DNA from: Azospirillum sp. TSA2s
Lineage (GTDB): Bacteria; Pseudomonadota; Alphaproteobacteria; Azospirillales; Azospirillaceae
Reading direction: 5' to 3'
DNA: 64,000 bases
Assembly (NCBI RefSeq): GCF_004923315.1
Contig: NZ_CP039643.1
Location: 1 to 64,000 of the forward strand
Of this stretch, positions 3,001 through 57,413 are shown piece by piece. The position numbers were made by a program, and so were the translations under genes. How positions within the stretch are numbered: the stretch's first letter is position 1; each line of letters starts with the position of its first letter. The notes under the pieces were generated by a model. It made no database searches, was not told the DNA's origin, and worked only from the letters and a program-made list of their open reading frames with translations.

Positions 3001-3311
3001 GCCTATGGGTATGACCCTTTAGAATTGATACGTTAGGACCAATCCTGGACACTAACAACGCCCCTGCGGAGCATTGCTATGCAAACAGGAAAATTACGCA
3101 TGGAACTTTGTCTTCTTCGAACTGAGCTGCGTTGCCACGATTACGGTTTGAGCACAAAAGATTCATAAAATTATATAGGTAAATACATAGTGTTGGAGAT
3201 TAATATCTGGCCATTTTTATAAATGGCGGCATGCATTGAGATGACGGGGGAGTTTTCCCAGGCAATCTCCGCTGCAAGAGTGATTGCTTGTGGATCGGCG
3301 TCCACGCTCGG
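3001..3311. other. AT-rich intergenic region upstream of the Fnr-like gene
   Basis: About 310 bases without a gene between the Fnr-like gene and the small ORF at 3312. It is clearly richer in A+T than its surroundings and must hold the fnr promoter. A perfect 7-bp stem with a TTAT loop lies at 3210-3227 (GCCATTT/AAATGGC). No Fnr box was found. Confidence 0.5.
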
Positions 3312-3440
3312 CTAGTATCTGAAGCTGGCTGCCTTGTTGATCTCATGAGATAAAGTCTCTGTCAGGTGACCTTTCATCGGCGTCGATGCAGGGCCACTCT
3401 GCGGTGGAATTTCTCTATCAAGATCAACAATGTAAGCCAT
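3312..3440 (-). CDS. Small protein of unknown function downstream of the sensor kinase
   Basis: A 42-residue ORF starting MAYIVDLDREIPPQSG, placed 38 bases after the sensor kinase stop in the same direction. It is a paralogue of the ORF at 2012-2197 (shared QSGPA, P(M/I)KG and FR(C/Y) positions) but ends earlier, at a TAG where the other copy has TGG. GGGAGG directly abuts the ATG, which is closer than ideal for a Shine-Dalgarno, so the start may lie upstream in the same open frame (to 3527, overlapping the kinase end). A 15-bp sequence in inverted orientation lies on either side (about 3293-3308 and 3462-3476). Function unknown. Confidence 0.35.
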   Translation of the reverse strand: MAYIVDLDREIPPQSGPASTPMKGHLTETLSHEINKAASFRY

Positions 3441-3478
3441 CCTCCCATCTGGCCGTGATTGGGCGCCGATCCACAGAC

Positions 3479-5260
3479 TCAGATAAGAAGCATCACTCGC
3501 AGCTGGGTTCCGGGGCCAACCGTCCATTGTGGTTCCCCGCCAACCTGTTCGGCAAGCATGGCGATCAGCTGAAGACCGGAGGCCCGTGTTTGCCCCTCCG
3601 GAATGCCAATGCCGTTGTCGGCTAGGGTGAGACAGACGGACCCCGGATGTGGCACGTTCAGATCGAGCGTGATCGTCCCTGCTCCTTCGGGGAAGGCATG
3701 CTTGGTGCTGTTGGTGACGAACTCGTTGGCGATCAGACCGAGCGACACCGCCGTGTTATGGTCGACGTAGACCTCACAGACGCTTGCCCTGAGGGTGACC
3801 TCCCCGGCAATGCTCCGCCCATACAAGGCGACTGCATTTGTGCAGAGCTCTCGCAGGTATCCGCCCAATTCGACCGTCCCAACTCGGCTGGTCTCGTAGA
3901 GGCGGCTGTGGATGAGGCGCAGCGCCTCGACACGGCCTTGCAGTTCACCAAGGATGCGGTGGGTCTCAGCCCCATTGGACTGGCCGCTCTCCAAAGCGAT
4001 CAGGCTCAGGATTGCCTGGAGGTCGTTCTTCACCCGATGTTGAAGCTCTCGCATCGCCGTCAGGCGCTCTTCCTCCGCACGTCGCAGATGGGCATCGGTG
4101 GTCTGCATCGACTCGTACACCGAGGCCAGTTCCGCGAGATCGATACCGGGTGACGGCGGCAACTTCGCCCCCGGCTCCCGCATAGCGTCCACCACCCGCG
4201 CCAACCCCACGACAGCCTGGGATAGCCGACGTGCGTAGACCAGCACCAGGAGCGACGCGAACCCGAGCGCCAGGACGCATACCGTCGCCGCCAACATCAA
4301 CGAACGGCGCATCGGGGCTTCGAACACCTTGGCAGGAGCGGCAAAGGCAACGGTCCACCCTGAGACGTGCGAGCGTGCAAAAGCCAGCGACAGCGGTTCT
4401 CCTTCCAGCGCTGGGCCTGACGCGTGGCCCTCTGGTGCCGTTCGAATGGCCTCCCGAACCCAGTCGGGAGCCAGTTTCCCGACGGAGCTTTCGGCGGCGC
4501 GAGTGCGAGCAACGACGACGCCGTCCCGGTCGATGATCCCGGCCACCCAGCCGGACGGGACCCGTTGCTCGTGCAGGAGTGCCTCCCACTTGGTCGCCGT
4601 GACGGCGGCACCGAGCACATATTGTCGCCCGTCTGGCCCGCGGGCCGGTACGAACACCACCGCGACCGGGGCACGGGCAATCGGCCCGTACAAGAGGTTA
4701 GACACCTGCGGCTGGCCTGTGAGCAGTGCCGTGTTTATCCAGGGGATGACAGCGTCCGTTCCGGCTGCGGGAGCCCCGTAGGAAATAGCGGTGGTGAAAA
4801 GGATCTTGCCCGTATCATCACGCAAAATCACGTGCGACCAATAGGGATGATTGGTCATGACGTCCTGGGCGATGCGGTGCAGCCGTTCGGGGTCGGCATT
4901 CTCCTTCATGGTCGACACGAGGCTTTGCAGGGCGGCCGTGGTGACAAGAAGCTGCTGGTCGAGGGCGGCAGCGATGGCCTGGACGGTCCGGCCCATCTCC
5001 GCCTCGGCTAGCCGCCGCTGGGATGTCATGTTCCATGCCAACAGGCCCAGTGTGATCAGGGCCATCGATGCCAAGGCCGCGACCACGACGCGGAGAAGAT
5101 GGCCACGGATGTTTTGCCGCGGTGACGAACCCAAGGGCGGTTGCGCCTTGGAAGAGGCTGACGCGCTCATCGGAACCGCCCCATCTTGGTTGAGCGATGC
5201 ACCAGCAACCTCGCTGCTGCCCTTCGTCATAGAAGCCGTCATCTTACCAGAAGAGCTCAT
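3479..5260 (-). CDS. Membrane sensor histidine kinase (HisKA_2 type)
   Basis: 593 residues. Transmembrane segments at about 57-77 and 320-343 enclose a ~240-residue periplasmic domain with a Cache-like pattern (WSHVILRDDTGKILF, then GWVAGIIDRDGVVVARTR). A short HAMP-like linker leads to the HisKA_2 phosphoacceptor H408 in MRELQHRVKNDLQAILSLIA. The HATPase domain has an N box (NEFVTNSTKHAFPEGAG), a G1 box (LADNGIGIPEG) and a SGLQLIAMLAEQVGGE segment. It should autophosphorylate in response to a small periplasmic ligand and pass phosphate to a response regulator; no cognate regulator is adjacent. The start is uncertain: 5260 lacks a clear ribosome-binding site and M7 or M11 are alternatives. 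A small ORF follows in the same direction. Confidence 0.88.
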   Translation of the reverse strand: MSSSGKMTASMTKGSSEVAGASLNQDGAVPMSASASSKAQPPLGSSPRQNIRGHLLRVVVAALASMALITLGLLAWNMTSQRRLAEAEMGRTVQAIAAALDQQLLVTTAALQSLVSTMKENADPERLHRIAQDVMTNHPYWSHVILRDDTGKILFTTAISYGAPAAGTDAVIPWINTALLTGQPQVSNLLYGPIARAPVAVVFVPARGPDGRQYVLGAAVTATKWEALLHEQRVPSGWVAGIIDRDGVVVARTRAAESSVGKLAPDWVREAIRTAPEGHASGPALEGEPLSLAFARSHVSGWTVAFAAPAKVFEAPMRRSLMLAATVCVLALGFASLLVLVYARRLSQAVVGLARVVDAMREPGAKLPPSPGIDLAELASVYESMQTTDAHLRRAEEERLTAMRELQHRVKNDLQAILSLIALESGQSNGAETHRILGELQGRVEALRLIHSRLYETSRVGTVELGGYLRELCTNAVALYGRSIAGEVTLRASVCEVYVDHNTAVSLGLIANEFVTNSTKHAFPEGAGTITLDLNVPHPGSVCLTLADNGIGIPEGQTRASGLQLIAMLAEQVGGEPQWTVGPGTQLRVMLLI

Positions 5261-23105: not shown

Positions 23106-24176
23106 GCCAAATATCGTAGGCAGCGGCCCCGTCTTCGTCTGGGTTGCACGCTATGCCGCATAAGGCCAACGCCGCTCGCCGTCGCCACATTCCCCGATCG
23201 AAACGGCGCGTTCTCAACTGGGCCGAGTACGACGCTGCCTTGCGCCAGCGCGGCAGCCTGACCGTGTGGGTCACCGACGAGGCCATCGCGCATTGGAAGG
23301 CGGCACCACGCAGCACGCCGGGTGGACAGCCGGCCTACTCCGACTTGGCGATCACAACGGCGCTGATGTTGCGCGCCGTGTTCCGTATGGCGCTGCGCCA
23401 GACCGAGGGGCTCCTCGCCTCCATCCTGCACCTGCTCGGCCTCGAGCTGCCAGTCCCGGACCACTCCACGATCAGCCGGCGCACCAAGACCGTGATCCTG
23501 CCCAAGCCGCCGCGCACCACCAGCGTTCCCCTGCACCTGTTGGTCGACAGCACCGGGTTGAAGCTGTGCGGGCCGGGCGAGTGGCTGATTGAGAAACACG
23601 GGACCAAGAAGCGGCGCTCTTGGAAAAAGCTGCACGTCGGCATGGATGCGGCGAGCGGCCGGATTGTCGCCGCGACGCTGACCGGGCGCGACAGCGATGA
23701 TGCGGCCCAGGTCGGTCCGTTGCTCGACCAGGTTCCCGGGAGGGTAGCGTCGCTGACCGGGGACGGCGCCTACGACCGCACCAGCGTCTACGCCGCCGTG
23801 CAGGAGCGTCATCCCGGAGCCGGTGTGGTGGCGCCGCCGCGGTGTGACGCCTTGCTCAGCGACACGGCGGACCGCGCGCCCAGCCCGCGCGACCGCCACA
23901 TCCAGACGATCGCAGAGACCGGCCGGAGGGCATGGCAGAAGACCAGCGGCTACAACCGACGGGCGATGGTCGAGGGGCAGATCGGGCGCTGGAAGCAAGT
24001 GCTCGGACCGGCGCTGCGCTTCCATACCGACGACGCACAGGCGACGGAGGTCGCCATCGGTGTCATGGTCCTGAACCGCATGCTTAATCTCGGAAGCCCG
24101 AACTCCGTCCGCGTTACCTGATCAGCCTCGGGGTTGGGGAGAGCTCTTGCCTTCCTCACCTCGCTGCAACACGCTG
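23087..24176 (+). mobile_element. IS5-family insertion sequence
   Basis: About 1.09 kb holding one intact transposase. Likely ends share CAGCGTGTTGCA at 23087-23098 and its reverse complement at 24165-24176, with weaker similarity further in. No flanking duplication is evident, so exact ends are approximate. It interrupts the aldolase gene. Confidence 0.7.
23153..24121 (+). CDS. IS5-family transposase
   Basis: 322 residues. N-terminal RRVLNWAEYDAALRQRGSL and LTVWVTDEAIAHW are typical of the IS5/IS903 group. The DDE residues are in LLVDSTGLKLCG, SLTGDGAYDRTS and YNRRAMVEGQIGRWK; the last gives the Y-(2)-R-(3)-E-(6)-K signature. The frame is intact and probably functional. The first ATG is at 23153; a TTG nine bases earlier is in frame. 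Confidence 0.92.
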   Translation: MPHKANAARRRHIPRSKRRVLNWAEYDAALRQRGSLTVWVTDEAIAHWKAAPRSTPGGQPAYSDLAITTALMLRAVFRMALRQTEGLLASILHLLGLELPVPDHSTISRRTKTVILPKPPRTTSVPLHLLVDSTGLKLCGPGEWLIEKHGTKKRRSWKKLHVGMDAASGRIVAATLTGRDSDDAAQVGPLLDQVPGRVASLTGDGAYDRTSVYAAVQERHPGAGVVAPPRCDALLSDTADRAPSPRDRHIQTIAETGRRAWQKTSGYNRRAMVEGQIGRWKQVLGPALRFHTDDAQATEVAIGVMVLNRMLNLGSPNSVRVT

Positions 24177-24192
24177 GTATCCGTTCGCGAAT

Positions 24193-24291
24193 CCTGAAGT
24201 TTTATTCACTGAAGCGGGGTTCCAACCGGCGCTGATTGGAACCCCACTTCTCCAAAGCTTTTCACAGTTTGTTCAAGGGCAGGCTGCATCA
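24193..24291 (-). repeat. Structured dispersed repeat, copy A
   Basis: About 100 bases that, on the minus strand, match the repeats at 46501-46675 and 49033-49202. The core at 24216-24245 is a 30-base inverted repeat (GGGGTTCCAA/TTGGAACCCC stem). One end abuts the IS5-type element, which may have trimmed it. The rest of the 315-base gap between transposase and recombinase shows no gene. Confidence 0.75.
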
Positions 24292-24436
24292 GAGTACCGC
24301 ATGATAAGTGTTTGCTAAACAACGCCGGACCGGTCGCATCTGCCGGAACACCACCCTCAGCTCATTTTCTGGCATGAGACCCAGCTCAAGGCCGAGCTGT
24401 GCGTGGCGCAACGGAGTTGACCCGGAACAGTACTGA

Positions 24437-25423
24437 TCAGTCGAACAGACCGTCGGACACGCTGGTCCACAGCTCCACGTCAGCGACATAGGACAGCGCC
24501 ATGTCTGCCGACTTATGCCGGGTCTGCTTCATGATGGCGGCCAGCGTGTGCTGCTTCTGGGCGGCGGCGGTGGCCAGACCGCGGCGCAGACTGTGCCCGG
24601 CGTAGCCAGTGGCGTCACGCCCGGCGCGGGTCAGCGCGCTCTGCACGATGCGGGCGACGGCGCGGTCGGACAGCCGGTGCAGCCCGTCGCGCAGGTCCCC
24701 GATCCGCGTCGCCTGCACATAGAGCGGACCGGGGTCATCGCCGCGGAGCTCGAGCCAGCGGAGCAGGGCGGCGCGTGGGCACACCGCCGCCTCCCGTGCC
24801 GCCACCAGCGGCACCACCGCACCGCGGCCGGCCTGGTCGGTCTTCGAGCGGCGCAGCGTCACCAGCACCCCGCGGCTTTGGATCTCCACGTCAGCGAGAT
24901 CGAGCGCCGAGATCTCGGAGCGGCGCAAGGCGCCGTGCAGGCCGGTCAGCAGCAGGCTGGCGTCGCGGGCGCCGAGCGGGCTGGCCGGCAGGGCGGCGAG
25001 GACGGGACGCATCACCTCCGGCAGCAGCGGCGCCACCTTGGTCGGCCGGATGCCCTTGGTGCGGGCGACGCCGGCGAGCACCTCGACGATCGCCTTGTGC
25101 TGGAGGTCGACCGGCACCCCCTCCTGGCGTAGGTGATGGGCCACCCCGGACAGGTAGGTGCGGATCGAGGCGGTCTTGAGGGCGCGCGCCAGCTCGGTGA
25201 CGAACAGCACCAGCTGGCGCGGGTCCGGGCTCAGCGGATCGATCCCATGCTCACCGCACCAAGACTGGTAGCGCCGCCACGCCGTCCGGTAGGTGGTGCG
25301 GGTCTTGTCGGCTTTGGCGCGCTGGACAAAGGCGTGGGCCTCGGCGACCAGCGCCACCAGATCCGCGGACGGCAGGGCCGGGTCGAGCGCGACGGGAAGG
25401 AGGGTGTCGGGACCGGTGGTCAC
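24437..25423 (-). CDS. Tyrosine recombinase/integrase
   Basis: 328 residues from a GTG at 25423 (VTTGPDTLLPVALDP). The core-binding domain is HAFVQRAKADKTRTTYRTAW, then a catalytic domain with arginine in LLTGLHGALRRSEISALDL, lysine in VTLRRSKTDQAG, HSLRRGLATAAA (HxLR), then KQTRHKSADMALSYV, where the tyrosine is expected. The key R, H, R and Y positions are all present. The GTG overlaps the stop of a small upstream gene (GTGA), so the two are coupled. Its position next to the ssp operon suggests it moved or moves that island. An in-frame reading to 25639 exists, but the upstream segment is better read in another frame. Confidence 0.88.
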   Translation of the reverse strand: MTTGPDTLLPVALDPALPSADLVALVAEAHAFVQRAKADKTRTTYRTAWRRYQSWCGEHGIDPLSPDPRQLVLFVTELARALKTASIRTYLSGVAHHLRQEGVPVDLQHKAIVEVLAGVARTKGIRPTKVAPLLPEVMRPVLAALPASPLGARDASLLLTGLHGALRRSEISALDLADVEIQSRGVLVTLRRSKTDQAGRGAVVPLVAAREAAVCPRAALLRWLELRGDDPGPLYVQATRIGDLRDGLHRLSDRAVARIVQSALTRAGRDATGYAGHSLRRGLATAAAQKQHTLAAIMKQTRHKSADMALSYVADVELWTSVSDGLFD

Positions 25424-25593
25424 GCGCGGCCGCTCCGGCGGCTGACGCGCCCGTCCGCTGCATCGAGCCAAGCGCGCAGGCGGGACAGCACGGCGGCAGC
25501 CTCGGGGGTGTCGAGCAGATCGGCCGGCCGGCGCCCGGCGAAGGGGGGCTCGGCGTTCGGCGTCTCCAACCAGCGCACCACACGCTGCAGCAT
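25420..25593 (-). CDS. Small DUF2384-like (Xre/ParS/MbcA toxin-binding-type) protein
   Basis: 57 residues beginning MLQRVVRWLETPNAEPPFAG and continuing RRPADLLDTPEAAAVLSRLR. The pattern WL-x-(T/S)PN, G-x-(R/T)P-x-(D)LLDT-(P/E) is the hallmark of the C-terminal toxin-binding domain (DUF2384) of Xre/MbcA/ParS antitoxins. The HTH half of such antitoxins is absent and no RES/ParT/MbcT toxin gene is adjacent. Its stop overlaps the recombinase GTG by four bases, so it is probably translated with the recombinase and may assist or control it. Codon pattern and coupling argue it is real, despite being short. Confidence 0.6.
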   Translation of the reverse strand: MLQRVVRWLETPNAEPPFAGRRPADLLDTPEAAAVLSRLRAWLDAADGRVSRRSGRA

Positions 25594-25905
25594 GCGTCTC
25601 TCCCCGGCCGCGCCTTCGTTGCATCGGCGAATCTAGCATGAGCGGGAATTGCTGGCCAAGCGTCCGCTTCCATCAATTAGCGGACGGTTCAAACGTGACG
25701 AGGGGCGGTCGCAACATTTTCTCCCGCTTTGTTCCACCCTGGTGTTGTCTTGCAAACAATCAGCGTGGTGTCCTGAAGCCGCAAGAGCGCTGATAGGCAC
25801 GCGCTGTGTGGACCACGCTTGTTAGATCGGTTCGCCCGCCCTGCTGAACGCATCATGTGGGCCCCCATGCCGACTACGAACAGAAGCATGAGCCCTGCAA
25901 CAAGA
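25594..25905. other. Island boundary region between ssp operon end and recombinase
   Basis: No convincing gene in 312 bases. A 7-bp inverted repeat with a 10-base spacer (GTCCGCT/AGCGGAC) lies at 25662-25685, upstream of the recombinase promoter side. A minus-strand frame at 25689-25985 overlaps the methyltransferase end and shows no family features. Confidence 0.4.
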
Positions 25906-27945
25906 TCATGGTGGGAAAGGCTTGACCGAACCGGCCCGGTTACAGACTGCGCTCTTACTATTTGTAAGGCGCAGGGCCTTGGCAATGTCCGCTGCGGGTA
26001 AGTCGATTGGGGCGGAAAGGGTCGGCATCGCAGAAATGAGCTGATCGTCGAATGCCTTCTGCTCTGAATAAGCGGGGAGGTCTGGCGACATGATCAGAGA
26101 TTTGAGCGTCAGAACCCGTGAGCTTTCGCCCTCGCCGTAGCGGAATTCATCCCAGTCCTGCTCCTTCATCTTAATCTTTATCCGCTCAGTCAAGCGCGGA
26201 AGCTGCGAATTCAAGTAATCATCGTACTTAAGAAGGGTCAATTTTCCTGAAGCGATGTGGATCTTCAGAGCATCGGCATTAGCCACCGAACCGTACAGCT
26301 TTTCGGCGCACCCGATGTAAGCCCGCAGCGGCGCTGGGAGTCTATCCACGAGCCTACCGTCGATTAGGAGCGAGTGGGATTCGACGAGATAGCCTAGGCC
26401 TGAAGTGGCGGCCTGGCGGCAGGCAGCCTCGATTGTCTGCGAGCGGCCAAGCGAAAACAGCAGGTCGCGTCCGGAGGCCTCGGCATCCTTTAGTGAACCA
26501 AAAAAGATACGAACATCTCGCTGGAGCTCCGGGGGAAGCTCTCCGTAGGATTGCCGCCTGTTGAAGGCTTTGAGAGCAAAATACACCGAGAGGTCCCGGA
26601 TGCGGGCGTCGCGCGCCTCGTCCAACTTCTCCCCCCCAAATAGCCTCTCCGCCAGCTCAAAAGCCCTCTTGGGCGAGCCGATCGCTTCCGTAATCTTGGC
26701 TGCAAGCTCGGGAGGCAATTCCTCATCGGCAGGCATCCGTCCTAAGTCGAGCGCAACAGCCCACAATGCGGCGAGCGTCTCCCGGTTCCGCTCCGCAACC
26801 GTCTCCCTCAGAGGGCGGGTGGCGCCGGGAGTGGCTTTCGGTGGGCGAAGCCTCGGCGGTGGAACAGCACGGATGAGTGCCGCCACATCGCGTGCCTGCC
26901 GGTGCCGTCGGGCCAGGAAGCGTTGCTCCTCGATCTTGTTCCGAAAGACTAGGAACACCCCTGGAGCGACCGCTATGGCCTCTTCGCCGAGGGAGACCTC
27001 AAGCAGTGATTTGATTTCGGCTTGCGTGAAATATTTCTGGAACGTCCCTCTGGTGGACAGATAGCCGTCTCCCAGGCGCTGCAGCCCGGCAGTGTTTCCC
27101 TTGCCGATCAGCATGACACCGACGCCCATGCAGATCTTAGCCAGCGCGAACGCTTTTCGAGCGGTATCGGCCCGCTCAGTCGGATTCTCAATGACGTTCA
27201 GCACGAAGCCGAGGTTCACGACGTCGGAGGGGATGCGCTCAGCGTGAGGACGCCAATGTGGATCCCAGCCAGTCGCGTTGATGCCTGCTCCGGCAAGAGC
27301 GGCGATGTCGTCCCCACGACCACAGCCGTAATCGAACACGGTCCTGCCTTCGATCACCAGCCCAGTACGGACCAATTCCTGCATCGGTACGGACAGCCGT
27401 TGGCGGGCAATGGCCGTCTTGTGGCGGGCCACGATGTGTGGCGTGTGAACGCGTTCAAGCAGAGCGACAGAGTGGCCGTCGATGCGGACACCAGCGTCGG
27501 TAAGCCGCTTCTCCCACGCCCGCCGCGTTCCAATCCTGATAGGGTCGGCGAATAAGCCCTTTGCTTCGAGCTCAGCCGTCAAACCTGCAAACAGTGGCCG
27601 CTGAGGGTGATCGGGAGCGAGGAGCAGTTCCTTACGGTGGAGGATTGGCGGGTTGGCGGAAGAACGGTAATTCCGCCGTGTGGCGCTCCCGTTCAGCTCC
27701 ACCAAGCAGGACCCCAGGAGGGCGGGAAACGCGACGGCATCGAACGACTCATATTCGAGCAGCGCCACCCGGCCAGTGGGACCACCGTCCAATCGAGCCA
27801 CGTTCCACTCGTCCCAGCCGGCTGCGGAGGCTGCCTTTTGGACAGCCTCGAGTTCAGAGGCGGTGAGGAGGAGCAGGGCGGACCGGTGAAGGTACACCGA
27901 TCCGCCGACCCGTTTGCCCGGCCGCTTGCCGTCCCGTGACCGCAT
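25906..27945 (-). CDS. DNA phosphorothioation-associated putative methyltransferase
   Basis: 679 residues. The middle holds a class I SAM-dependent methyltransferase: motif I TVFDYGCGRGDDIAALAGAG, then NATGWDPHWRP, and LGFVLNVIENPTERA. The long N-terminal (HRSALLLLTASELEAVQKAA) and C-terminal parts match the family annotated as phosphorothioation-associated methyltransferase (dnd_rel_methyl), known only from neighbourhood with Dnd/Dpt-type genes. A GGGGAGG ribosome-binding site lies between the sspH stop and this ATG, 14 bases apart, so it is part of the operon. It has no proven substrate. It could modify DNA or a system component. It is the last gene of the operon. Confidence 0.85.
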   Translation of the reverse strand: MRSRDGKRPGKRVGGSVYLHRSALLLLTASELEAVQKAASAAGWDEWNVARLDGGPTGRVALLEYESFDAVAFPALLGSCLVELNGSATRRNYRSSANPPILHRKELLLAPDHPQRPLFAGLTAELEAKGLFADPIRIGTRRAWEKRLTDAGVRIDGHSVALLERVHTPHIVARHKTAIARQRLSVPMQELVRTGLVIEGRTVFDYGCGRGDDIAALAGAGINATGWDPHWRPHAERIPSDVVNLGFVLNVIENPTERADTARKAFALAKICMGVGVMLIGKGNTAGLQRLGDGYLSTRGTFQKYFTQAEIKSLLEVSLGEEAIAVAPGVFLVFRNKIEEQRFLARRHRQARDVAALIRAVPPPRLRPPKATPGATRPLRETVAERNRETLAALWAVALDLGRMPADEELPPELAAKITEAIGSPKRAFELAERLFGGEKLDEARDARIRDLSVYFALKAFNRRQSYGELPPELQRDVRIFFGSLKDAEASGRDLLFSLGRSQTIEAACRQAATSGLGYLVESHSLLIDGRLVDRLPAPLRAYIGCAEKLYGSVANADALKIHIASGKLTLLKYDDYLNSQLPRLTERIKIKMKEQDWDEFRYGEGESSRVLTLKSLIMSPDLPAYSEQKAFDDQLISAMPTLSAPIDLPAADIAKALRLTNSKSAVCNRAGSVKPFPP

Positions 27946-36749: not shown

Positions 36750-37553
36750 TCACAAGTGGCAAATGGCGCAGCCATCAAGCTGCAGACCGTCGGGGACTTC
36801 GTAGCGGTGCTCAAGGCGTTCGATATCGTCGAGCGAGCGGCCCTCGGCCCAGGTGTAGGGGCGGCCGCCTTCGATCTTCTCGTAGGCCTTTGCCTTTTCG
36901 AAGAGTTCAGGATGGTTTTCTTTGAGTCCCTGCCACTCGCCGATCTGCTGGTAGAAGCAGAAGTAGCAGCCGGACCGGGAGCGCCAGGCGTAATACGGGG
37001 GCGCGCCAAGGCCCGAGTCTTCTAGGATTGCGACGATGTCTTGAAGACCAAGTCCAGCCTCCTTGAAGGGGTAGATCGGGATAATGTTCGGCTCTTCGGA
37101 GAGTACGACAGGGCGGCGCTGCTTATAACCATCACGGTTTTCGTCGGCTCGGATGCCGATGTAGCTGTATGCCTTATCCGAACCGATGTGCACTTCAAAG
37201 GGTTTGATCTTGAGGATTCGTGTGCACCACCGTGCCTGCGGGCTCGGCATGAAGCCGCCGTAGTATTCCTTGAGGAAGACGTCGAATGGGTTGCGGTCGC
37301 CCTTCTCCTTGACCCCGAGAAGATCAAGTGCGTTCAGCTTGGTGACCTGGACGCCGAAAATGGCCTCGAAGCGCCTGATGTAGGCATAGGTTTCCGGTAG
37401 CTCGACGCCCGTGTCGCAGAAGACGAACTCGAACTTGGCATCCGGGTGATTTTCCAGAAGCCACACGGCAAGCGCCGTAGAATCTTTGCCGCCGGAAAAG
37501 GAGAGGATATGCCGCGCCTCCTTGTCAGCCAACGCTTCAGCCAACGTCGCCAT
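36750..37553 (-). CDS. sspD: SspD: PAPS-reductase-like ATP pyrophosphatase of DNA phosphorothioation
   Basis: 267 residues. The PP-loop ILSFSGGKDSTALAVWLLE (SGGKDS at 20-25) is the ATP pyrophosphatase site of PAPS-reductase/ThiI-like enzymes. It is followed by FEFVFCDTGVELPETYAYI and RWCTRILKIKPFE, then two CxxC pairs, SGCYFCFYQQ and DGCAICHL at the extreme C-terminus, that could bind an Fe-S cluster or zinc. At 267 residues it is shorter than DndC (~500), which fits SspD. It would activate the DNA backbone phosphate so that sulfur from SspA can be inserted. GGAGGTG precedes the ATG; it overlaps the sspC end by 17 bases. Confidence 0.88.
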   Translation of the reverse strand: MATLAEALADKEARHILSFSGGKDSTALAVWLLENHPDAKFEFVFCDTGVELPETYAYIRRFEAIFGVQVTKLNALDLLGVKEKGDRNPFDVFLKEYYGGFMPSPQARWCTRILKIKPFEVHIGSDKAYSYIGIRADENRDGYKQRRPVVLSEEPNIIPIYPFKEAGLGLQDIVAILEDSGLGAPPYYAWRSRSGCYFCFYQQIGEWQGLKENHPELFEKAKAYEKIEGGRPYTWAEGRSLDDIERLEHRYEVPDGLQLDGCAICHL

Positions 37554-40500
37554 GAGTCACCTCCTTGTCCCGCGCAACCCGCTCCAGGAGTTCCGCTGCC
37601 GCCTTTTTTCCAGCCATTCGCATAAGTTTTGCCATTAAGTCGCCGATCCGCTCCTCAAGGACGGGCCTGACCGCCTCGTGCGGGGCGTCGCCCGAAAGGG
37701 CAGATTCCTCGATTTGCTCCGCTGCCGCCTTCAGGCGGCGTTCGAATTCGGCCGGAGTGCGCTCCGTCCAGCGATCAAAATCTTGGCCGATGAGGAGCAT
37801 AGAGAGCGCTCTTGCGAAGGAGGCCTCCGTGTAACGGCCGTCGGTAGCGGCGGCGGCCCTGGAGAGCACCGCCTTTGCCGTCGCATCTACGGACCCCTTC
37901 GGCAAGGTTGCAGCCGAGAAGCACGTGGCCCAGCGGTGTGCCCGCTCCAGGGCATCACCATTGGCATGGCGCGAGATGGTGAGCGTCTCCTTAACGGTCC
38001 GGATGGCATCCGCCTGATACCCTTCCACGACCGCCTCCAATGCCTTTCGACATCGCCGAACCGCGGCGATCGTCTGTGGCCCAGGGCACTTGGTATTTGC
38101 GGCCATGGGCAGGCGGCGGAGCAGAACGTCTACGGGATCGTGGCCCATCGACAGGGCCAGCTGGAAGGATCTCACCTCAGAAGTCGGATGCTTGACCACC
38201 AGGGCGTTGTCGGGCAGCTGGGCTTTCCAGGCCTCTAATGCTTCGTAGGCGTGCCGAAGGAGGTCGACCTCCTCCGGTGCAGGCTTTCCGAACTCATTTG
38301 CAAGCTCGCGCAAGTATGCGGCGAGGTCGGGTTCGTCGACGTTGAGCACCTCGGCCTCGAAACGGTCCGGAGCCGAACACATCTCCTCGACCTCAGAGGC
38401 GAGAATGTCATGAACCCAAGCGCCGTCCCGTCTGATCGCGACCGCGCGTCCGAACGCCTTGAGACCGGCGCCGACAAGTACAGGGAGAAGCCCGTCCCGA
38501 AGGCCTTCCGGTGGCGATCGAAGGCGGTCGATTAGGGTCCGGAAGGGCTTGGTTCCCGGTGTAAAAAAGAAATCTTCTAGGATCAGCCACACGCTTTTTA
38601 GGCCACGATCGCCGATCTCGAAGGACGCCGCCCAGCGCCATTCATTGCCGAACTTAGCGTACAGACCGGTGCGATGAAGCGCAGTGCGGTAGATTGCGGC
38701 GTCTGGCGTACCACCGGAGTAGTCAAAGCCCAAATGTGGATCCCCGGAGCGCTCCAGGATGCCGAGCAGAACCTTCTTCCGGGCGTTGACCAGAGGACGA
38801 GAGAGCTTCCGTCGGACGAGCATCTCGTTCCGAATTTTCGGTGTTTCAGAAAACCGGCCTTCCGCGATGATGGACAGTTCCTCGTTGAGCGTCGCCATGC
38901 CCGTGGCGGCAAGTTGCTTGCCGGCGACGAGCCAGACCTGCTGCCCCTTGCCTGGCATGATGGCCCGTTCGAGAGCCCGATCTAGAGCCTCCATCGCGGC
39001 ATCCGCCATATGGCCGACCTCTGTTGCGGCAAGTGGGTCGCTTGCAATCAACGCATCGTCCTTGGCCAAGCGGTCAAGGCAGGCGATCTCGACCGCAAGC
39101 TCCCCAAGCGGCAGCGGCTCAGAGCACAAGCACACCACCACGCTACCGTCGTTGGGAAGGAGACGGGGCACCGCCTTTGCCGCAGCCGCTGCCTCGGCAC
39201 GTCCTGTCGCAAGCGCGTACACCACCCTGCCGTCCTCACCTGGAGAAAGCCTCAGCAGAGGGTGGTCCGGTCCGGCAGAGATCAAGTCCGACGCTCGGGC
39301 GTAGGCACCGGTCCAGGCTCTGCGAATCCAATATTCAAGGTTGTAGCGGACGGGGCGGATTGTTGGTGGGGGGCGATGCTTGGAGAGGAACGATATGAAG
39401 TCGAAGTTGGCCTCCAGCCGGACGCGTTCTTCCTCCAAGCGGCCGCGGAGGTCGATGTCAGTTCCGTGCCAAACCGCGACATCGTCGGTCCGGCGCCTAA
39501 AGAGGAGTAAGTTCCGTGCGATCAGCCCTTCCAGCGTTGCCGCCGTATCGCCTCGGTCACCCCAAGGATCCACAGCGAACAGAAGCGCCTCCCTGGACAC
39601 TTTGAGTCTCTGCCCTGAGGAACCAAGGCTGAGCAGAGCGGTGGAGGCGATCGCCAACGCTTCCTCAGAGTTCTCGGCCTTGGACAACGCGCTTTCCGTC
39701 TCAAGCCATCGACGGTGCATGCCGGCGATGCCGACATCCGCTTCCATAGAGGCGGAAAAGCCGTCGTACACGTCCTTCAGCGTCACGGGGCGGCAAAGAT
39801 CGGCGGAGGCGAGGAACGAAAAGACGGTCCGCTCGTGTTGGGCCACCCTGGCAGCAAGACCGGGGAGAGCATGCAGCGCGGCGGGGTCGACAGGCCAAGC
39901 GGCGGCGAGGGTTTCCGCTAGGACCGCTGCGTCTTCAAACGATTTGAACAGTCCGGCGGCGAGCGCCCTTTCCGCAGCGCGGTGGAAGTCCGGCTCCCCA
40001 GGCGGCGGTCCGGCAGGGCGGGCCACCTCAACCACCGATGCGATGAGACGATGCATTTCCCTGCTGTCGTCCACGAACCTAATCGGCTCGAACCGGCCTT
40101 CAACCTTTCTCCAAGCCGACCGCGCTGCCTGGCTGAGGCTCCCCGTGTAGTGAAAAAAGCTTTGGTGCATCAGCACTGTCAGCGTCACAGCGGGGTGTTC
40201 TTGCCTAGCAGCCCATTCGGCCGCCTGCTGAAGCTGCGCCAAGTCGTGGGCACGTCCTTCAGCGGCTAAGGCTTCAAGATGTCGGCCGAATTCGTCCCAA
40301 ACGATGGCGATTCGGTCGACGCCTCTCGCCCGAGCTGTCGTAGCAACGGCATCAAGGACGGCTGTAATGCCCAACCGACTGGGCCGGCGAATGTCGTTGC
40401 CCAATGCGTCAGATGTCGCTGCGATGAGAGCATCGCCGAAGTCTGCCTGCGCCCCCTCCAAACTGATGGCAAGTCCTTTGCCACCAACCGACATGCGGTC

Positions 40501-46391: not shown

Positions 46392-46500
46392 GCCGGCACC
46401 TCCACAAGTTCCGGCTCGCTGTACCATATGATGATAGTGTCCAGCGAGCGCGCCGTACAGCGATACTCATTTGGACAAATACGCATTTGCTTGTGAATCA

Positions 46501-46675
46501 GCACCCGATAGGTACCCCAAGCTGATGCAGCTCAAGCCTTTGAAGGAACTGTAAAAGGCTTTCCCGATATGGGGCTCCAATCGGCGCCGGCTGGAACCCC
46601 ACCTCAGTGAAAAACTTCTAGTATCTACAAGGGAATACGATGCTTCTGATGAAGGCCCCGCTTCCACACTGATTA
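46501..46675. repeat. Structured dispersed repeat, copy B
   Basis: 175 bases that align along their whole length with 49033-49202 in the same orientation, and partly with copy A (24193-24291, opposite strand). The core at 46571-46600 folds into a 30-base hairpin (GGGGCTCCA...TGGAACCCC). It lies just outside the parB end; the parS candidate at 46699 is next. Confidence 0.8.
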
Positions 46676-46698
46676 ACGAGCAGCGCTCTCCTGCCGCC

Positions 46699-46716
46699 GC
46701 GAGAAAATTTTCTCGC
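46699..46716. promoter_or_regulatory. Candidate parS site 1
   Basis: GCGAGAAAATTTTCTCGC is a perfect 18-bp palindrome 13 bases beyond the parB stop. The same 14-bp core, GAGAAAATTTTCTC, recurs upstream of parA at 48887. Palindromes flanking parAB are typical ParB-binding centromere sites. Confidence 0.65.
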
Positions 46717-48886: not shown

Positions 48887-48900
48887 GAGAAAATTTTCTC
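48887..48900. promoter_or_regulatory. Candidate parS site 2
   Basis: GAGAAAATTTTCTC, a perfect 14-bp palindrome identical to the core of 46699-46716, lies about 215 bases upstream of parA. It is likely a second ParB-binding site or the par operator. Confidence 0.65.
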
Positions 48901-49032
48901 GCGCAGGTCATACAGGAGGACGTGGATCTTGAGCGTGCCTTTTGTCTGCCATTGCGATCACTGTCCGTCACAGGGCATTCCAGATAGGGACGGGAGCATT
49001 CCCCCCCCGTCACGTAGGGGACCCTGTGAGCA

Positions 49033-49202
49033 GCACTCAATAAGGACCCCAAGCTGATGCAACCCAACTTTTTGAGGGAACTGTAAAGACTTTGCGGAAG
49101 TGGGCCCCAATCGGAACCGATTGGAACCCCACCTCAGTGAAAATTTCTGCATCTACAAGGGGCTCATTGCTTCTGATGAAGACACCGCTTCCACGCCGAT
49201 TA
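49033..49202. repeat. Structured dispersed repeat, copy C
   Basis: 170 bases aligned with copy B (46501-46675) in the same orientation. Its 30-base core at 49101-49130 forms a hairpin whose inner stem is CCAATCGG/CCGATTGG. Together copies B and C bracket the parAB locus. The remaining 48674-49032 region holds the par promoter and parS2, no gene. Confidence 0.8.
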
Positions 49203-51470
49203 TCATCCAATGCTACGCGCTCTGCGGCGCTGCTTCTCCGGCTCGCCCTGCGTTAGGCGCCGGCCTTCGTCCTGGCGCAAACTCTTCTCCTGACTCTGCG
49301 CCTGAGGCTTGCGCGCCTGCGCCAGTTCGGCTGCCATGCGCTGCCGCTCGCCCCGCGCCAGCCCGGCCGACACCTGCTCGATCAGCTCTCCCCTACCCTG
49401 CGAGCGTGCCAGATCGTTCCAGTCGGTGCCGCGGTCATTCGGCCGGAAGGTCGGCAGCAACACCGTCCCTCCAACCCTGGCCGCCGCGTCCTCCGCCTTC
49501 TCCCGCCCGACGTTCGGCTTGCCCTGGCGTTCCTTGACGTGATCGTTGTCGCCGGCAATCACCAGCGGCTTCTCCGGATACCGCTGGTGCAGCGCCTCGG
49601 CCACCGGCCCAAGATTGCCGGCGTTGAAGGCCACCGCCACCGCCAGCCCGGTTTCCCGATGAAGCGTCGCCGCGGTGGCGTAGCCCTCCGCCACCAGCAC
49701 GGACTTTGATGCCGCGGCATCCCCGATCAGGAAGTACCCGCCCTGTGCGCGAGCCTCCTTCTGGAAGCTCTTGCGCCCCTCGGCGGTGATCGCCTGCACC
49801 GACATCACCTTGCCGTCCATGTCCCGGATCGGCACCAGCAGGTTCCCCTCGCGGTCCTGGCGCAAGCCGTAGGACGGCACATCTTTGGACCGCAGATAGG
49901 GATGATCGTCATTCGCCGGTTCGGCCTGGGCAAGCCGTGCCTCGGCGGCGTCGGCCGCCCGCTCCTGCACCAGCTCGCGCTCTTGCGCGCGGGCCTGCCG
50001 GCGTTGGGCCGCCTCTGCCGTCAGCCGGGCGCGGTCCACCGCTGTGGCGGCCTGCACCCGGCCTGGCGCCTTCCAATTCCGCTCCATCCCCGTCTTATGG
50101 TTCTTGATGTAGCCGGCCGGATGCCCATCGGTGTGGCCGACATAGGCGCCGCTGCGCTCGCCCGGCTTGTCGCCCTCCACCTTCACCCGCCGCATCTGGC
50201 CGTCCATCTCCGGCGGCCCGTCCAGGCGCAGACCCGCCTCGCGCAAGGCGGCGGCGAACTCGGCGCGGGGATCGCGGCCGGCGTCCACATGAAGATCGGT
50301 GTGCCCCGGCCGCCATTTCTCCAGCGGCGCCAGATCGACGCCCGGCGGCGCATACCATGCCTTCTGCTCGCGGTCCCACCGTGCGCCCAACCCCTTCGCC
50401 TCGTCCTTCTCCGCATAGGGCACCGCCAGATAGACCCGTTCGTCAGCCGTCTGCATCGCCACGGCCTGCGTCTCGGAAATGAGCACCGGCATCTTGACCT
50501 GCACCCCCTCGTCCCGACCCGGCGCCGGCGTCGACGTTTGGTCGCGGCCTTGCTGCTGGCCCTGGTCCTGGCTAAGCTGCTGCTCCAGCCCGTTGAGGTG
50601 CTTCACGATCTTCTCGGCGTCGGCGGCCGCGCGGAAAATCTCACGCGGGTCCTCCTGCAAGGCTTCGATCCACGAGCCGATGTAAGCGACGTGCTGGCCG
50701 GGGTCGTGGCCGATTTCGAGCTGCTGCCCCAGCACCATCGACGCGATTTCCGCCCGCAGTTCCTCCCTGGCGTATCCCGCAGAGCCGAACGGGTGCGACA
50801 GGTCGCGGTCCAGGCGGGAGCTGTGCCCGGTCCAATGCCCCTTCTCGTGCAATGCCGTCGCATAGAAGCCGTCGGCGCTCGGAAACTGCGAGCGCTCCGG
50901 CAGCACGATATGATCCCATACCGGGCTGTAGAAGGCGCGGTTGCCGGCTTGGTGAAGGATCTTCGGATCGCCGGCCGACAGCAGCCGCTCCGCCTGCTCG
51001 TGCCGCTGCCACTCCGGCAGCGCCGGCTTCGCCTCGGCCGCCGGCAGCCCGTCGATCTGCGCCGCGTTGAACACCACGGCGGAGAGAACGCGAGGACGCT
51101 CGTAGCGCACCATCTGCTTGAGCGGCTGACCGTCCTCGCCAATCACCGGCTTGCCGTCCTGCCCCAGCACCGGCTCCAGGCCCTGCCATTTCCAATACTG
51201 AACGCGGGTGCCCTTCTCCCCCTTGCGCACCTGGGCGCCCGTGTCCTGGGCTTGGTTGTAGGTCATCCAGCGTGGATCGCCGTAGCCCCTGGCCTGCCCC
51301 ACCGCCATCAGCCACAGGGTGTTGGCGCCGCGATAATCTTTGCCGGTGGTTGGATTGTAGGGCAGGTGGCGCTCGCCCGGCTTCCACGGCTTGATCCAGG
51401 GGGCCGTTCCCTCCTTGAGCTGGTCGATGATGGTGTCGGCGACGGTCTGGACGAACTCACGCGACGCCAT
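49203..51470 (-). CDS. ArdC-like antirestriction/Toprim plasmid protein (TraC-type primase region)
   Basis: 755 residues in three parts. Residues 1-~140 are the ArdC N-terminal ssDNA-binding domain (FVQTVADTIIDQLKEGTAPW, NPTTGKDYRGANTLWL). A zincin-like metalloprotease domain follows with HEKGH at 208-212. After a DUF5710-like segment (VYLAVPYAEKDEAKGLGARW) comes a Toprim-like C-terminal half (SYGLRQDREGNLLVPIRDMD, VLVAEGYATAATLHRETG, LVIAGDNDH). ArdC proteins protect incoming single-stranded DNA from restriction; the Toprim part suggests primase activity on the transferred strand. It occupies the position of traC in RP4-like Tra1 regions. Confidence 0.85.
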   Translation of the reverse strand: MASREFVQTVADTIIDQLKEGTAPWIKPWKPGERHLPYNPTTGKDYRGANTLWLMAVGQARGYGDPRWMTYNQAQDTGAQVRKGEKGTRVQYWKWQGLEPVLGQDGKPVIGEDGQPLKQMVRYERPRVLSAVVFNAAQIDGLPAAEAKPALPEWQRHEQAERLLSAGDPKILHQAGNRAFYSPVWDHIVLPERSQFPSADGFYATALHEKGHWTGHSSRLDRDLSHPFGSAGYAREELRAEIASMVLGQQLEIGHDPGQHVAYIGSWIEALQEDPREIFRAAADAEKIVKHLNGLEQQLSQDQGQQQGRDQTSTPAPGRDEGVQVKMPVLISETQAVAMQTADERVYLAVPYAEKDEAKGLGARWDREQKAWYAPPGVDLAPLEKWRPGHTDLHVDAGRDPRAEFAAALREAGLRLDGPPEMDGQMRRVKVEGDKPGERSGAYVGHTDGHPAGYIKNHKTGMERNWKAPGRVQAATAVDRARLTAEAAQRRQARAQERELVQERAADAAEARLAQAEPANDDHPYLRSKDVPSYGLRQDREGNLLVPIRDMDGKVMSVQAITAEGRKSFQKEARAQGGYFLIGDAAASKSVLVAEGYATAATLHRETGLAVAVAFNAGNLGPVAEALHQRYPEKPLVIAGDNDHVKERQGKPNVGREKAEDAAARVGGTVLLPTFRPNDRGTDWNDLARSQGRGELIEQVSAGLARGERQRMAAELAQARKPQAQSQEKSLRQDEGRRLTQGEPEKQRRRARSIG

Positions 51471-52285: not shown

Positions 52286-52836
52286 GACGCCCCCTGCACA
52301 AGGATGGGCCGCGCGGTGCCCTGGATGCTCTCCAGCGGCAGCGCCCCGAAATAGCGGCTGTCGAAAGACGCCGGGTGATGGGAGGACACCACCCACACGG
52401 TGCCGGCCTCCACCCGGTAGCGGCCGGGCGCCAGCACCGGCATCGGCCGGCCGGCGCCGTCTGCGGCAAGCGGCCGGCTGTTCACCAGCAGCACGCCGTT
52501 CACCCGCACCCCCTCGCCCGTCAGCTCCACCTCGTCGCCGGCCTGGGCGACGATGGGCTTGAACAGCGGTTGATAGCCGCCGGGGCAGGCCCCCGCCGGC
52601 ACATAGCCGCGCTCACGCGCCAGCCGGAATGGTTCGCTGTCGGGCGGGCACAACTCGACCACCACGCCGGGAGTCACGGCGCCGGCCGCATCGACCCGCC
52701 ACAGCCCGACCGGCAGGGAGGGGGTGGAGTTGATCCGCCAACCGGCAGTGCCGGCGGCAGTGGTCGCCACCGTGGTCAGGATGGCGGCGCACCACACCCC
52801 CACGGCAAAGCGCCGTCCACGATTGGGCCGGCTCAC
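52282..52836 (-). CDS. traF: TraF-like conjugal transfer peptidase (S26 family)
   Basis: 184 residues. N-terminal membrane segment FAVGVWCAAILTTVATTAAG, then the serine nucleophile region RINSTPSLPVGLWRVD, a lysine in GGYQPLFKPIVAQAGDEVEL, and the final SHHPASFDSRYFGALPLESI (S26 box with SxDSRxFG). In RP4, TraF cyclises the TrbC pilin. Here a trbC gene exists at 63009, so the same maturation step is likely. Its ATG at 52836 overlaps the traG stop by four bases. Confidence 0.92.
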   Translation of the reverse strand: MSRPNRGRRFAVGVWCAAILTTVATTAAGTAGWRINSTPSLPVGLWRVDAAGAVTPGVVVELCPPDSEPFRLARERGYVPAGACPGGYQPLFKPIVAQAGDEVELTGEGVRVNGVLLVNSRPLAADGAGRPMPVLAPGRYRVEAGTVWVVSSHHPASFDSRYFGALPLESIQGTARPILVQGAS

Positions 52837-54725
52837 AGCACGAACGCCTTACCCGGCGTCTTCCCCGGCCTCAAACCGCGCAGACGATCGGTTGGCGGAG
52901 CTGGGATCTTGGCCCGGTCGGTGAAGACCGGATCGCGGAAGTAGAGGCTCTGCGTGCCATAGACCGGGGCATGGCCGGCGGTAAACACCAGCACGTCGCC
53001 CGGCTCACTGATCCGGCCGGCCTCGTCCTTCACCGGGGCTTTCAGCCGCATCACCTCGTCGGGCGTCAGCAGCGGCCGGCTCACCTCGTGATAGGAGCGC
53101 GTCACATTCTGCAAGACGGCCCCGAAGCGCGACCCGCTGGTGGAGATGTCTTCTTTCACAATCGTCGTGGTGCCGGTCATCTTCGACAGCCATTCGGCCG
53201 TCTCGACCTTGTTCGGCGCGTAGGCCACCCGGACATGGCAACTGGACAGAATGCTCTCGTCCTTGCCGTAGAGGCTCCACAGCTGCGCCACGTCCTGAAC
53301 GATCACATACGCCTTGATGCCGTAACCGGTGATGAAGGACAGCGCCTCCTGGAAGACCTCCAGCTTGCCGAAGCTGGCAAACTCGTCGAGCAGCAGCAGC
53401 AGGCGGTGTTTGTGAAGCGCTTGCTCCTGGCCGTCGACAAAGGTCATCTCGTCGCGCACCAGCACCCGGACGATCTGGTTGATGACCAGCCGCATCAGCG
53501 GTTTCAGCCGGTCCTTGTCGGCGGGGCGGACAACCAGGTAGAGCGACACCGGCCGCTCATGGTCCATCAGGTCGCCGACCATGAAATCACTGTGCCCGGT
53601 GTTCTGCTCCACCAGCGGATCACGGTAGAGGCTGAGGAATCGCCGGGCGGTGGAGAGGATTGAGGCGCGCTCCTCGTCCTCGGTGTTCAGCATGTCGCGC
53701 GCCGCTGCCGCCACCACCGGATGGGCCACCGCCTCGCCTGTCTCCGCCTTCCAGAGATGCCGGTTCTCCAGCATCTCCTCGTACAGCTCGATCACCGGCC
53801 GCTCGGGATCGGACAGGGCTTGCGCCACCGCCGGCAGGGTGACGGCCCGCCCGTCCTTGGCTTCCTTGTAGCTGAGATGGAGGATGACCCCGGTCAGCAG
53901 CGCATGCGCCGACGCTGCCCAGTGGTCCAACTGCCCGGTGCCCTGGGGGTCAACCATGATGGTGACGACGTTCTGCACGTCGCCCACCTCGTAGAGCGTG
54001 CCGAAGCGGATTTCCGCCAACGGGTTGAAGGCAACGCTGCCCTCGGCGGCCGCCGGATCGAACTTCATCACCACATGGCCCTGCGCCTTGCGCCAGCCCG
54101 CCGACATCGCCCACAGCTCGCCCTTCATGTCGTGGGCCACCACACTGTGCGGCCAGGACAGCAGGGTGGGGACCACCAGCCCGACGCCCTTGCCGGATCG
54201 CGGCGGCGCGATGGCGGCGATGTGCTCCGGCCCGTTGTGCCGGAGGTAATGCAGCCGGCCGGTCGCCGGATCGGTCCAGCCGCCGACATAGACGCCGGCA
54301 CCCGGCTTGTCCGCCGCTGGCAGCAGCCCGCTGCGCTCCACCTCGCTGCGGCCCGCCCAATGGGCGGTGCCATGCACGCCCTCATGCCGGGTGGCGCTGC
54401 GCGTCGCGAAACCAACGGCCAGCACAGTGGTCAGGATGCTGGCGCCCAAGCCGCCGAGAAAGCCGAGATTGGCTGTGTCGAACACCTCCTTGGCGTTCCA
54501 GTACCAGTCCATCTGCCAGCGGAACCACGCCCACGGCGGATAGACCACCCCAATCACCGGCTCCCCGAGCGCCGGGTGATAGCCGAGACTCTGCGCCACA
54601 TACTGGGTGCAGACGCTCGACAGCCCGACCGCCGTCCCGGCCAGCAGCAGCGGCCCCAACAGCCGCGCCCGTGACCGCTTACGCTTGGGCTGGAGGGTCG
54701 GACTTAAAGGGCCGGCTGTTGTCAT
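52833..54725 (-). CDS. traG: TraG/VirD4-type conjugative coupling protein
   Basis: 630 residues. N-terminal membrane segments (LLGPLLLAGTAVGLSSVCTQ; LGGLGASILTTVLAVGFATR), then the coupling ATPase: Walker A IAPPRSGKGVGLVVPTLLSW, Walker B LLLLLDEFASFGKLEVFQEA, and a helical all-alpha domain. It brings the relaxase-bound strand to the type IV secretion channel. Start at 54725 (MTTAGPLSPT) overlaps the traI end by four bases; the frame is open to 54797 but inside traI. Confidence 0.93.
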   Translation of the reverse strand: MTTAGPLSPTLQPKRKRSRARLLGPLLLAGTAVGLSSVCTQYVAQSLGYHPALGEPVIGVVYPPWAWFRWQMDWYWNAKEVFDTANLGFLGGLGASILTTVLAVGFATRSATRHEGVHGTAHWAGRSEVERSGLLPAADKPGAGVYVGGWTDPATGRLHYLRHNGPEHIAAIAPPRSGKGVGLVVPTLLSWPHSVVAHDMKGELWAMSAGWRKAQGHVVMKFDPAAAEGSVAFNPLAEIRFGTLYEVGDVQNVVTIMVDPQGTGQLDHWAASAHALLTGVILHLSYKEAKDGRAVTLPAVAQALSDPERPVIELYEEMLENRHLWKAETGEAVAHPVVAAAARDMLNTEDEERASILSTARRFLSLYRDPLVEQNTGHSDFMVGDLMDHERPVSLYLVVRPADKDRLKPLMRLVINQIVRVLVRDEMTFVDGQEQALHKHRLLLLLDEFASFGKLEVFQEALSFITGYGIKAYVIVQDVAQLWSLYGKDESILSSCHVRVAYAPNKVETAEWLSKMTGTTTIVKEDISTSGSRFGAVLQNVTRSYHEVSRPLLTPDEVMRLKAPVKDEAGRISEPGDVLVFTAGHAPVYGTQSLYFRDPVFTDRAKIPAPPTDRLRGLRPGKTPGKAFVL

Positions 54726-57069: not shown

Positions 57070-57413
57070 GGTGGTTTCCTCCCTGGCGTTCAAAGCGGCG
57101 GCAGCCGCCGTATGCCTCGCAGAGCAAGATCAGCGTCGAGCCCAAAGGGCGAGTAAGCGCGGGTGGTGGGGGACGACACGGCTTCGCCGTGTTGGCCAAC
57201 AACACATATCTTGCCATCCGCAAAAGTGAAATTATCCGCAATTATCTGCAAGAGTCTGCGACGGCCTATACCAACCGAGTCAAAACCGCAGAGCCTAGCA
57301 AACGATTTCACATAATTTCTTACGATTTCACATAATTTCATATAATTTCGGAAAATTTCTTATGGTTGCAGATAATTTCATCCGCTGGTAGCGTTCCCTT
57401 GCTTGGCGCAGAC
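57070..57413. other. Putative oriT region between traJ and traK
   Basis: The traJ-traK interval is the oriT position in RP4-type plasmids. A hairpin lies at 57176-57192 (ACACGGC-TTC-GCCGTGT), followed at about 57207-57214 by ATATCTTGCC, which resembles the YATCCTG-Y nic consensus of MOBP relaxases. Further right there is an A+T-rich repeat array at 57302-57379. The exact nic position is not proven. Confidence 0.55.
57302..57379. repeat. AT-rich direct-repeat array next to oriT
   Basis: ACGATTTCACATAATTTC occurs at 57302-57319 and 57322-57339. The shorter motif ATAATTTC recurs at 57312, 57332, 57342 and 57372. Matching sequences in the opposite orientation (GAAATTATC, ATTATCTGCAA) lie at about 57227-57252. 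It probably binds TraK or another accessory protein and regulates the divergent tra promoters. Confidence 0.65.

Follow-up and report, generated by a model that had tools for sequence, protein, structure and literature searches.

The dispersed repeat of this Azospirillum DNA can, with moderate confidence, be assigned to a family of mini-transposons that are non-autonomous, MITE-like and of the IS21 type. The units are short, lack coding capacity, carry terminal inverted repeats and occur as dispersed copies with exact ends, all of which are MITE features. They are unusual in that their geometry is constant throughout the class, that they carry IHF-type sites and that their inner repeats overlap; some copies, moreover, lie between unrelated truncated genes without matching target duplications. 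A MITE-like element had already been considered in the first-pass annotation, and the terminal inverted repeats, the absence of a gene, the exact ends and the identical copies elsewhere bear this out, although no clean target duplication accompanies them.

The window analysed comprises bases 1-64000 of the 105,657-bp contig C2 of an 8.1 Mb genome. Using the region 24100-24400 as blastn query against the window, partners were obtained at 46522-46618 (E 3e-17) and 49079-49141 (E 6e-8). The three copies reported earlier (A, B and C) were thereby confirmed, with B and C inverted relative to A, while a fourth copy (D) had been missed. Copy A (24163-24280, minus strand; cmsearch with model R2, 46.5 bits, E 4e-13; blastn) is truncated, covers only positions 45-161 of the 188 model positions and lacks both terminal inverted repeats. 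Its central dyad, GAAGcGGGGTTCCAA...TTGGAACCCCaCTTC, was located at 24211-24250 from the sequence and as an inverted self match. Copy A is flanked on one side by the end of an IS5-type transposase gene (23144-24121, DDE families) and on the other by a gene for a tyrosine recombinase (24437-25639, minus strand). A gene for a DNA phosphorothioation-associated putative methyltransferase (25909-27945, minus strand; TIGR04096, E 2.5e-151), possibly of a Dnd-type locus, is also found near copy A. Compared with plasmid records, 24100-24400 gave six matches, all of them in Azospirillum and all to the transposase end beside copy A; copy B alone as query matched nothing in plasmid DNA.

Copy B (46492-46678) is full-length with 187 bp and was detected over model positions 1-188 (cmsearch, 111.8 bits, E 3e-33); it is given on the plus strand, an arbitrary choice because the element is near-symmetric. 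In alignment A1 its left terminal inverted repeat lies at 46492-46518 (plus strand, columns 1-28), its central dyad at 46568-46603 (columns 80-115) and its right terminal inverted repeat, the last bases of which are decayed, at 46652-46678 (minus strand, columns 167-193). Copy C (49025-49205, plus strand, 181 bp; cmsearch 77.0 bits, E 2e-22; open reading frame list and sequence) is near-full-length, and its right end provides the stop codon of the ArdC/Toprim gene at 49203-51470 (minus strand). According to sequence and alignment, one arm of its central dyad (49098-49133) is a base shorter. The hairpin at 24211-24250 and its counterparts are present as described, with stem letters that differ and pairing that is mostly kept, but the claim that the core hairpin has the same length in all three copies does not hold exactly. 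Copies B and C flank parB/parA, one on each side. The diverged full-length copy D (3289-3475; cmsearch on both strands, model 1-188, 69.6 bits, E 3e-20) lies three bases beyond the 3' end of a histidine kinase gene (3479-5260, minus strand). Copies B and C are rows of the 41-row model, while copy D was not used in building it. At 2043-2152 there is a possible fifth short relic with an end repeat near copy D's (18.9 bits at 2043), for which the covariance model gave only E 0.17. In the genome to which the window belongs, the covariance model detected the four copies of the window and one on contig C6.

Lengths in the alignment of 41 copies range over 181-191 bp; further copies reach 192 bp and a few weaker matches are shorter. 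Partial or doubtful copies, such as L006, L018, L062, L079, L080, L084 and L085 as well as L135, L229, L230, L234 and L235, were left out of alignment A1. From the edge inwards, the layout consists of a 27-bp terminal inverted repeat that starts with TGTG (consensus TGTGAATCAGCACCGAAGTGGGACCCC), an IHF-type site and a central dyad of about 36 bp (GGGGTCCCGATCGGC/GCCGATCGGGACCCC), followed by the mirror image. The IHF-type site, WATCARNNNNTTR, ends 13-15 nt inside the terminal repeat and is mirrored in both halves. With at most one mismatch it was present in 32 of 78 half-spacers (seven perfect), 29 times at this fixed place, compared with a mean of 2.8 (maximum 6) in shuffled spacers, a mean of 3.8 (maximum 19) for permuted patterns and 9 for the reversed site. 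The pattern had been picked after seeing the letters, and the permuted patterns are the control for that choice; the count is based on 39 of 43 given boundaries, copies more than 95% identical or containing N having been removed. In copies B and C the IHF-type sites are imperfect.

Within the 27-bp arms 77.9% of the cells of the 41 copies are paired. The full structure, in which end pairs with end and the dyad with itself, has 43 pairs, and 83.0% of its cells pair compared with 78.4% in shuffles. Double changes were seen in 24 of the 43 pairs (17.3 in shuffles) and in 109 cells (54.3 in shuffles, 29-54 in slid controls); as the shuffles ignore the relatedness of the copies, the exact excess is uncertain. 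The earlier statement that base changes keep the pairing is thus corroborated by this covariation check on 41 copies. Such pairing is predicted both by a folded strand and by two-sided binding of one protein, and it is the point in favor of a structured RNA, regulatory or small, that is maintained because of its fold, the RNA side of the structured RNA/DNA motif that had been proposed. We regard such an RNA as very improbable. Rfam 15 at gathering score yields only traJ-II in the window and no match for the repeat, the model fits both strands of the same copy, as is expected of a symmetric DNA element, the pairing takes in the element's own termini, the units are mobile with exact ends, and what is conserved in the spacer is a DNA site of IHF type. 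The matches on both strands, the exact ends and the IHF-type sites favor DNA over RNA, and the DNA side of the proposal fits. A coding function was rejected likewise, since the alignment shows DNA symmetry, namely a dyad and terminal repeats, and no conserved frame is evident in the 41 aligned copies; an open frame (FTE-GFQ...) does run through parts of copies A, B and C.

Copies elsewhere show that the element was recently mobile, since identical units with exact TGTG...CACA edges occur in unrelated surroundings. Three identical 185-bp copies (including L163 and L164) with unrelated flanks were found in one Sphingomonad contig, and apart from bases shared by chance their identity stops at TGTG and CACA. 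Two 191-bp copies of genome G243 (L272 and L287) are identical over 192 bases in different surroundings. Two of the three Sphingomonad copies join unrelated truncated genes: at the edges of copy 1, homologues of pyruvate carboxylase (pyc) stop and homologues of an IS5 transposase start, and at copy 2 a mechanosensitive channel meets an aldo/keto reductase. In Methylocystis a truncated element abuts tniA, and the match to full copies of this gene starts 26 bases into it. Genes flanking other copies, assigned by eye, do not enter any count.

No empty site was seen among the copy loci compared. The target-site analysis covered 62 element sites for which both flanks were available, after exclusion of flanks that were short, contained N or were repeated. 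A perfect 8-bp target duplication was absent from all 62; three matched at six or more of eight positions (0.49 expected), one of these three at seven (0.05 expected), and no such excess of near-matches occurred at duplication lengths of 7 and 9. In the 124 flanks of these sites, with sides pooled, positions +2 to +5 outside the element had a composition bias of 0.09-0.17 bits, whereas 40 control positions averaged 0.017 bits and did not exceed 0.09. We read this as each edge being joined to a preferred target, with the two edges of one copy often stemming from different events. Target-site duplication is usual, though not universal, for bacterial MITEs.

At E <= 0.001 the covariance model matched 22 of 385 genomes across the class, in 17 of 276 genera, so the element is widespread but present in a minority of genomes; this search, in which the filters were stricter and six candidates were scored for each genome, missed copy D of the own genome. 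Within the genus, copy B had matches in 5 of 45 genomes and its relative L009 in 10 of 45, some of them partial. With at most three mismatches the end pattern was found in 7 of 45 genomes of the genus versus 1 of 289 of the class, which indicates that the end letters vary much. A scan of 84,980 bacterial and archaeal genomes returned the 30-bp dyad pattern in 24 stretches, titled as Sphingomonadaceae, Methylobacterium, Xanthobacter, Rhodopseudomonas, Limobrevibacterium, other Alphaproteobacteria and one Klebsiella MAG contig. Sequences of complete elements come from Bradyrhizobium, Nitrobacter, Bosea, Mesorhizobium, Rhizobium, Defluviicoccus and Methylobacterium, while other genera are represented by the dyad only; the plasmid matches in Microvirga, Roseomonas and Neorhizobium consist of the dyad or a weak match alone. 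Copies are present at about ten places in genome G370. In viral contigs no exact match was obtained for the dyad or one end pattern. No annotated feature lay beneath the match in 25 of the 28 records of one plasmid search, and among the papers listed by searches of the open-access literature (IS21 miniatures or MITEs, Azospirillum, class-wide) none was seen to describe the element; subscription journals and IS databases lay outside this search.

Several stretches around copies are shared between genomes. A Sphingomonadaceae assembly and Sphingobium sp. 15-1 have 6,862 identical bases around one copy (L163 and L172), a case of recent sharing, and 3,188 identical bases surround one copy in two genomes classed as different species (L267, G069:C18; L268, G067:C1). 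The Polymorphobacter plasmids L079 and L232 carry two element-like dyads in tandem, about 180 bp apart, with 10-12 matching places per record when the strands of one dyad are counted apart. Methylocystis parvus has a near-identical TniABQ transposon on two plasmids (L257 and L258) and a third one (L238), 92% identical, which is truncated at the small element.

The assignment to IS21 is based on the end sequences. With a weight matrix derived only from the element's 82 arms, 431,802 windows were scored in the 60 loci that IS21 searches had yielded, many of these loci falling below the family cut-off. The six best matches were IS21 termini (31.8, 29.7, 27.5, 27.0, 25.8 and 24.6 bits; median of the element's own arms 28.9), and IS21 termini accounted for eight of the ten best, the other two (L200, 23.0; L202, 20.9) being located in loci below the IS21 cut-off. 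In the IS21 elements L186 and L195 duplications of 9 and 8 bp, respectively, coincide exactly with the matrix-matched termini, while L205, L188, L187 and L203 were called termini by their position 138-150 bp before the IstA match. IS21 inner repeats, GATCGGCGTC(G/C)AA...GGACCC, came lower in the list (17.1, 15.4, 15.4 and less), and other plasmid DNA rich in IS, about 98 kb in total (L182, L257-L259), scored 15.7 at best.

The IS21 termini of the own genome score low with the matrix (left ends 12.1 and 5.4 bits, one right end 9.6, another group -9.2), and an IS21 parent had at first been set aside on these elements with a crude scoring, before the end readings elsewhere reinstated it. Among 11 copy-holding genomes, IS21 gave no match in G377 and only matches below the cut-off in G371 and G378. 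The target duplication of IS21 is 4-8 bp. When read by eye, two of the seven IS21 copies of the own genome with both flanks readable have a duplication of their own (L215, 8 bp; L220, 6 bp). In addition, the left flank of L217 and the right flank of L218, IS21 copies about 10 kb apart (G000:C10:26700-30100 and 36800-40200), share the 8-bp CACGACGG, which looks like a composite or fusion insertion. No IS21 element with an IHF site and overlapping inner repeats was seen in the own or the copy-holding genomes, and hence none from which the element could derive by simple internal deletion. A parental transposon with similar ends, as had been asked for, was found only at the level of the end sequences (IS21 family), and none with the same internal layout was identified.

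The action of IS21 on tandem copies leads to replicon fusions. In PMC10122671 the ends of IS21 are described as made up of L1/L2 and R1/R2 repeats with a terminal CA, and tandem copies as being handled by a 'cointegrase' isoform. In the reading we propose, each end of the element carries an outer IstA-type repeat (TGTGnATCrGCnnnGAAnnGGGACCCC) like L1/R1 of IS21 at the terminus, and further in a second repeat like L2/R2. The two inner repeats overlap head to head and so form the GGGGTCCCGATCGGC/GCCGATCGGGACCCC dyad, leaving no room for genes. By bending the DNA at the predicted site, IHF would let outer and inner repeats meet, and IstA/IstB of an IS21 in the same cell would pair the element ends, cleave the DNA at its CA ends and attach these to a preferred target. 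The element is probably moved in trans by IstA/IstB, and IHF binding and fusion-type movement are likewise inferred. Single copies between unrelated sequences without a matching duplication could then arise because IS21 enzymes also act on tandems, giving replicon fusions.

According to an alternative explanation the gene-less mobile family is free-standing and served by some recombinase or transposase other than that of IS21, the IS21-like letters of its ends go back to a common origin or to convergence, and the element serves as a site at which unrelated DNA is linked; we consider it unlikely, although it carries more weight than the other rivals. It would agree with the constant geometry in distant genera without an autonomous copy in any locus read, with the chimeric junctions (pyc/element/IS5 transposase, mechanosensitive channel/element/aldo-keto reductase and element/5'-truncated tniA) and with the lack of a clean duplication in 62 sites. 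However, the element's ends match IS21 termini best, these being the six best of all windows scanned, and five of the seven own-genome IS21 copies are likewise without a duplication of their own. No autonomous partner with the same layout of terminal repeat, IHF site and dyad occurred in any locus read, and partial end matches at G000:C4 and G025:C10 belonged to no autonomous element as far as these were read. As one geometry is kept class-wide while the letters drift and no autonomous copy of the same layout appeared in the loci read, we do not call the element mere debris. A more speculative view, rather doubtful at present, is that of a free-standing family of gene-less transposable units whose four-site, two-IHF geometry is kept class-wide despite changing letters and which is run by whichever IS21-like enzyme is present; its moves would regularly link unrelated DNA segments in pairs, making it a dedicated plasmid-fusing joint.

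Descent from other transposons was considered too. A TniABQ (Tn402/Tn5053-type) parent had been favored for a time from the position of the Methylocystis parvus dyad, about 45 bp upstream of the annotated tniA. This origin is hardly credible, as the full transposon copies (L257 and L258, 99.9% identical) have no repeat and dyad upstream, the match to the tniA adjoining the element begins only within the full gene, and TniA relatives, present in 12 of 19 genomes, were without a dyad in the 18 loci scanned. It also appears very improbable that the parent was a tyrosine-recombinase element, whether of the RIT type (recombinase in trio) or represented by the recombinase next to copy A. A tyrosine recombinase gene does lie near copy A, and RIT elements with a 28-29 bp inverted repeat and an overlapping palindrome are described in part of PMC3414803. 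In the RIT stretch of pHG1 (one record), however, the element's repeat scored at most 10.8 bits, and this away from the trios, so that for the pHG1 RITs, the one RIT type read, this parent was rejected. Relatives of the window recombinase were present at one scanned copy locus only (L038), about 0.9 kb from the element.

The perfect palindrome GAGAAAATTTTCTC occurs at 46701-46714 and 48887-48900, one on each side of parB/parA, and with at most one mismatch it has exactly these two matches in the window (0 expected); the pair are candidate parS centromere sites. A traJ-II RNA (Rfam, 57113-57216, minus strand, 65.1 bits) is found near a TraG-type coupling protein gene (52833-54797). The own genome (G000) also contains tyrosine recombinase genes (frames of 386 and 691 aa) that recur with equal scores at C6:108762/110462, C10:212798/214498 and C2:103808, which presumably resemble Tn554-type modules. 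If the IS21 assignment is true, Alphaproteobacteria harbor a widespread gene-less passenger that is moved by IS21 enzymes, and its end layout offers a ready test of the cooperation of outer repeat, inner repeat and IHF when IS21 transposes. Intergenic repeats that lack annotation, and some of the truncated genes, on plasmids of nitrogen-fixing and methylotrophic bacteria would then be accounted for as well, and the four window copies, two of them flanking parAB, would be places where replicons could fuse or rearrange.

Among known systems, REP/BIME palindromic repeats combine a palindrome with IHF sites, and BIMEs are not known to be bounded by terminal inverted repeats. The palindrome and the IHF site are shared with the element, which in contrast has exact TGTG...CACA edges. 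Tn3-type ends begin with GGGG, whereas the ends of the element are IS21-type, and this separates it from the TIMEs. These Tn3-derived miniature elements, described in parts of PMC4133298, resemble it in being gene-less, mobilised in trans and able to form mosaic units. With short gene-less inverted-repeat elements of the MITE type it shares dispersed, identical copies in new places; MITE-type deletion derivatives are lineage-specific, while the element keeps one geometry across distant genera, with few copies, a central dyad and IHF-type sites. The likeness to IS21 extends to the letters of the terminal repeat (TGTGnATCGGCGnnGAAnnGGGACCCC), the TG...CA edges and a second inner repeat (GATCGGCG...GGACCCC), and true IS21 copies without a duplication of their own occur as well. 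The dyad half GATCGGCGCCGATCGGGACCCC resembles the IS21 inner GATCGGCGTCGAAAAAGGACCCC, while spacing and overlap differ: in the element the inner repeats overlap head to head, a spacer of about 48 nt with the IHF-type site separates outer and inner repeat, and a clean 8-bp duplication is missing. At about 187 bp, compared with about 2.5 kb for IS21, it has no istA/istB, as is expected of a non-autonomous derivative, and is therefore not itself an IS21 element.
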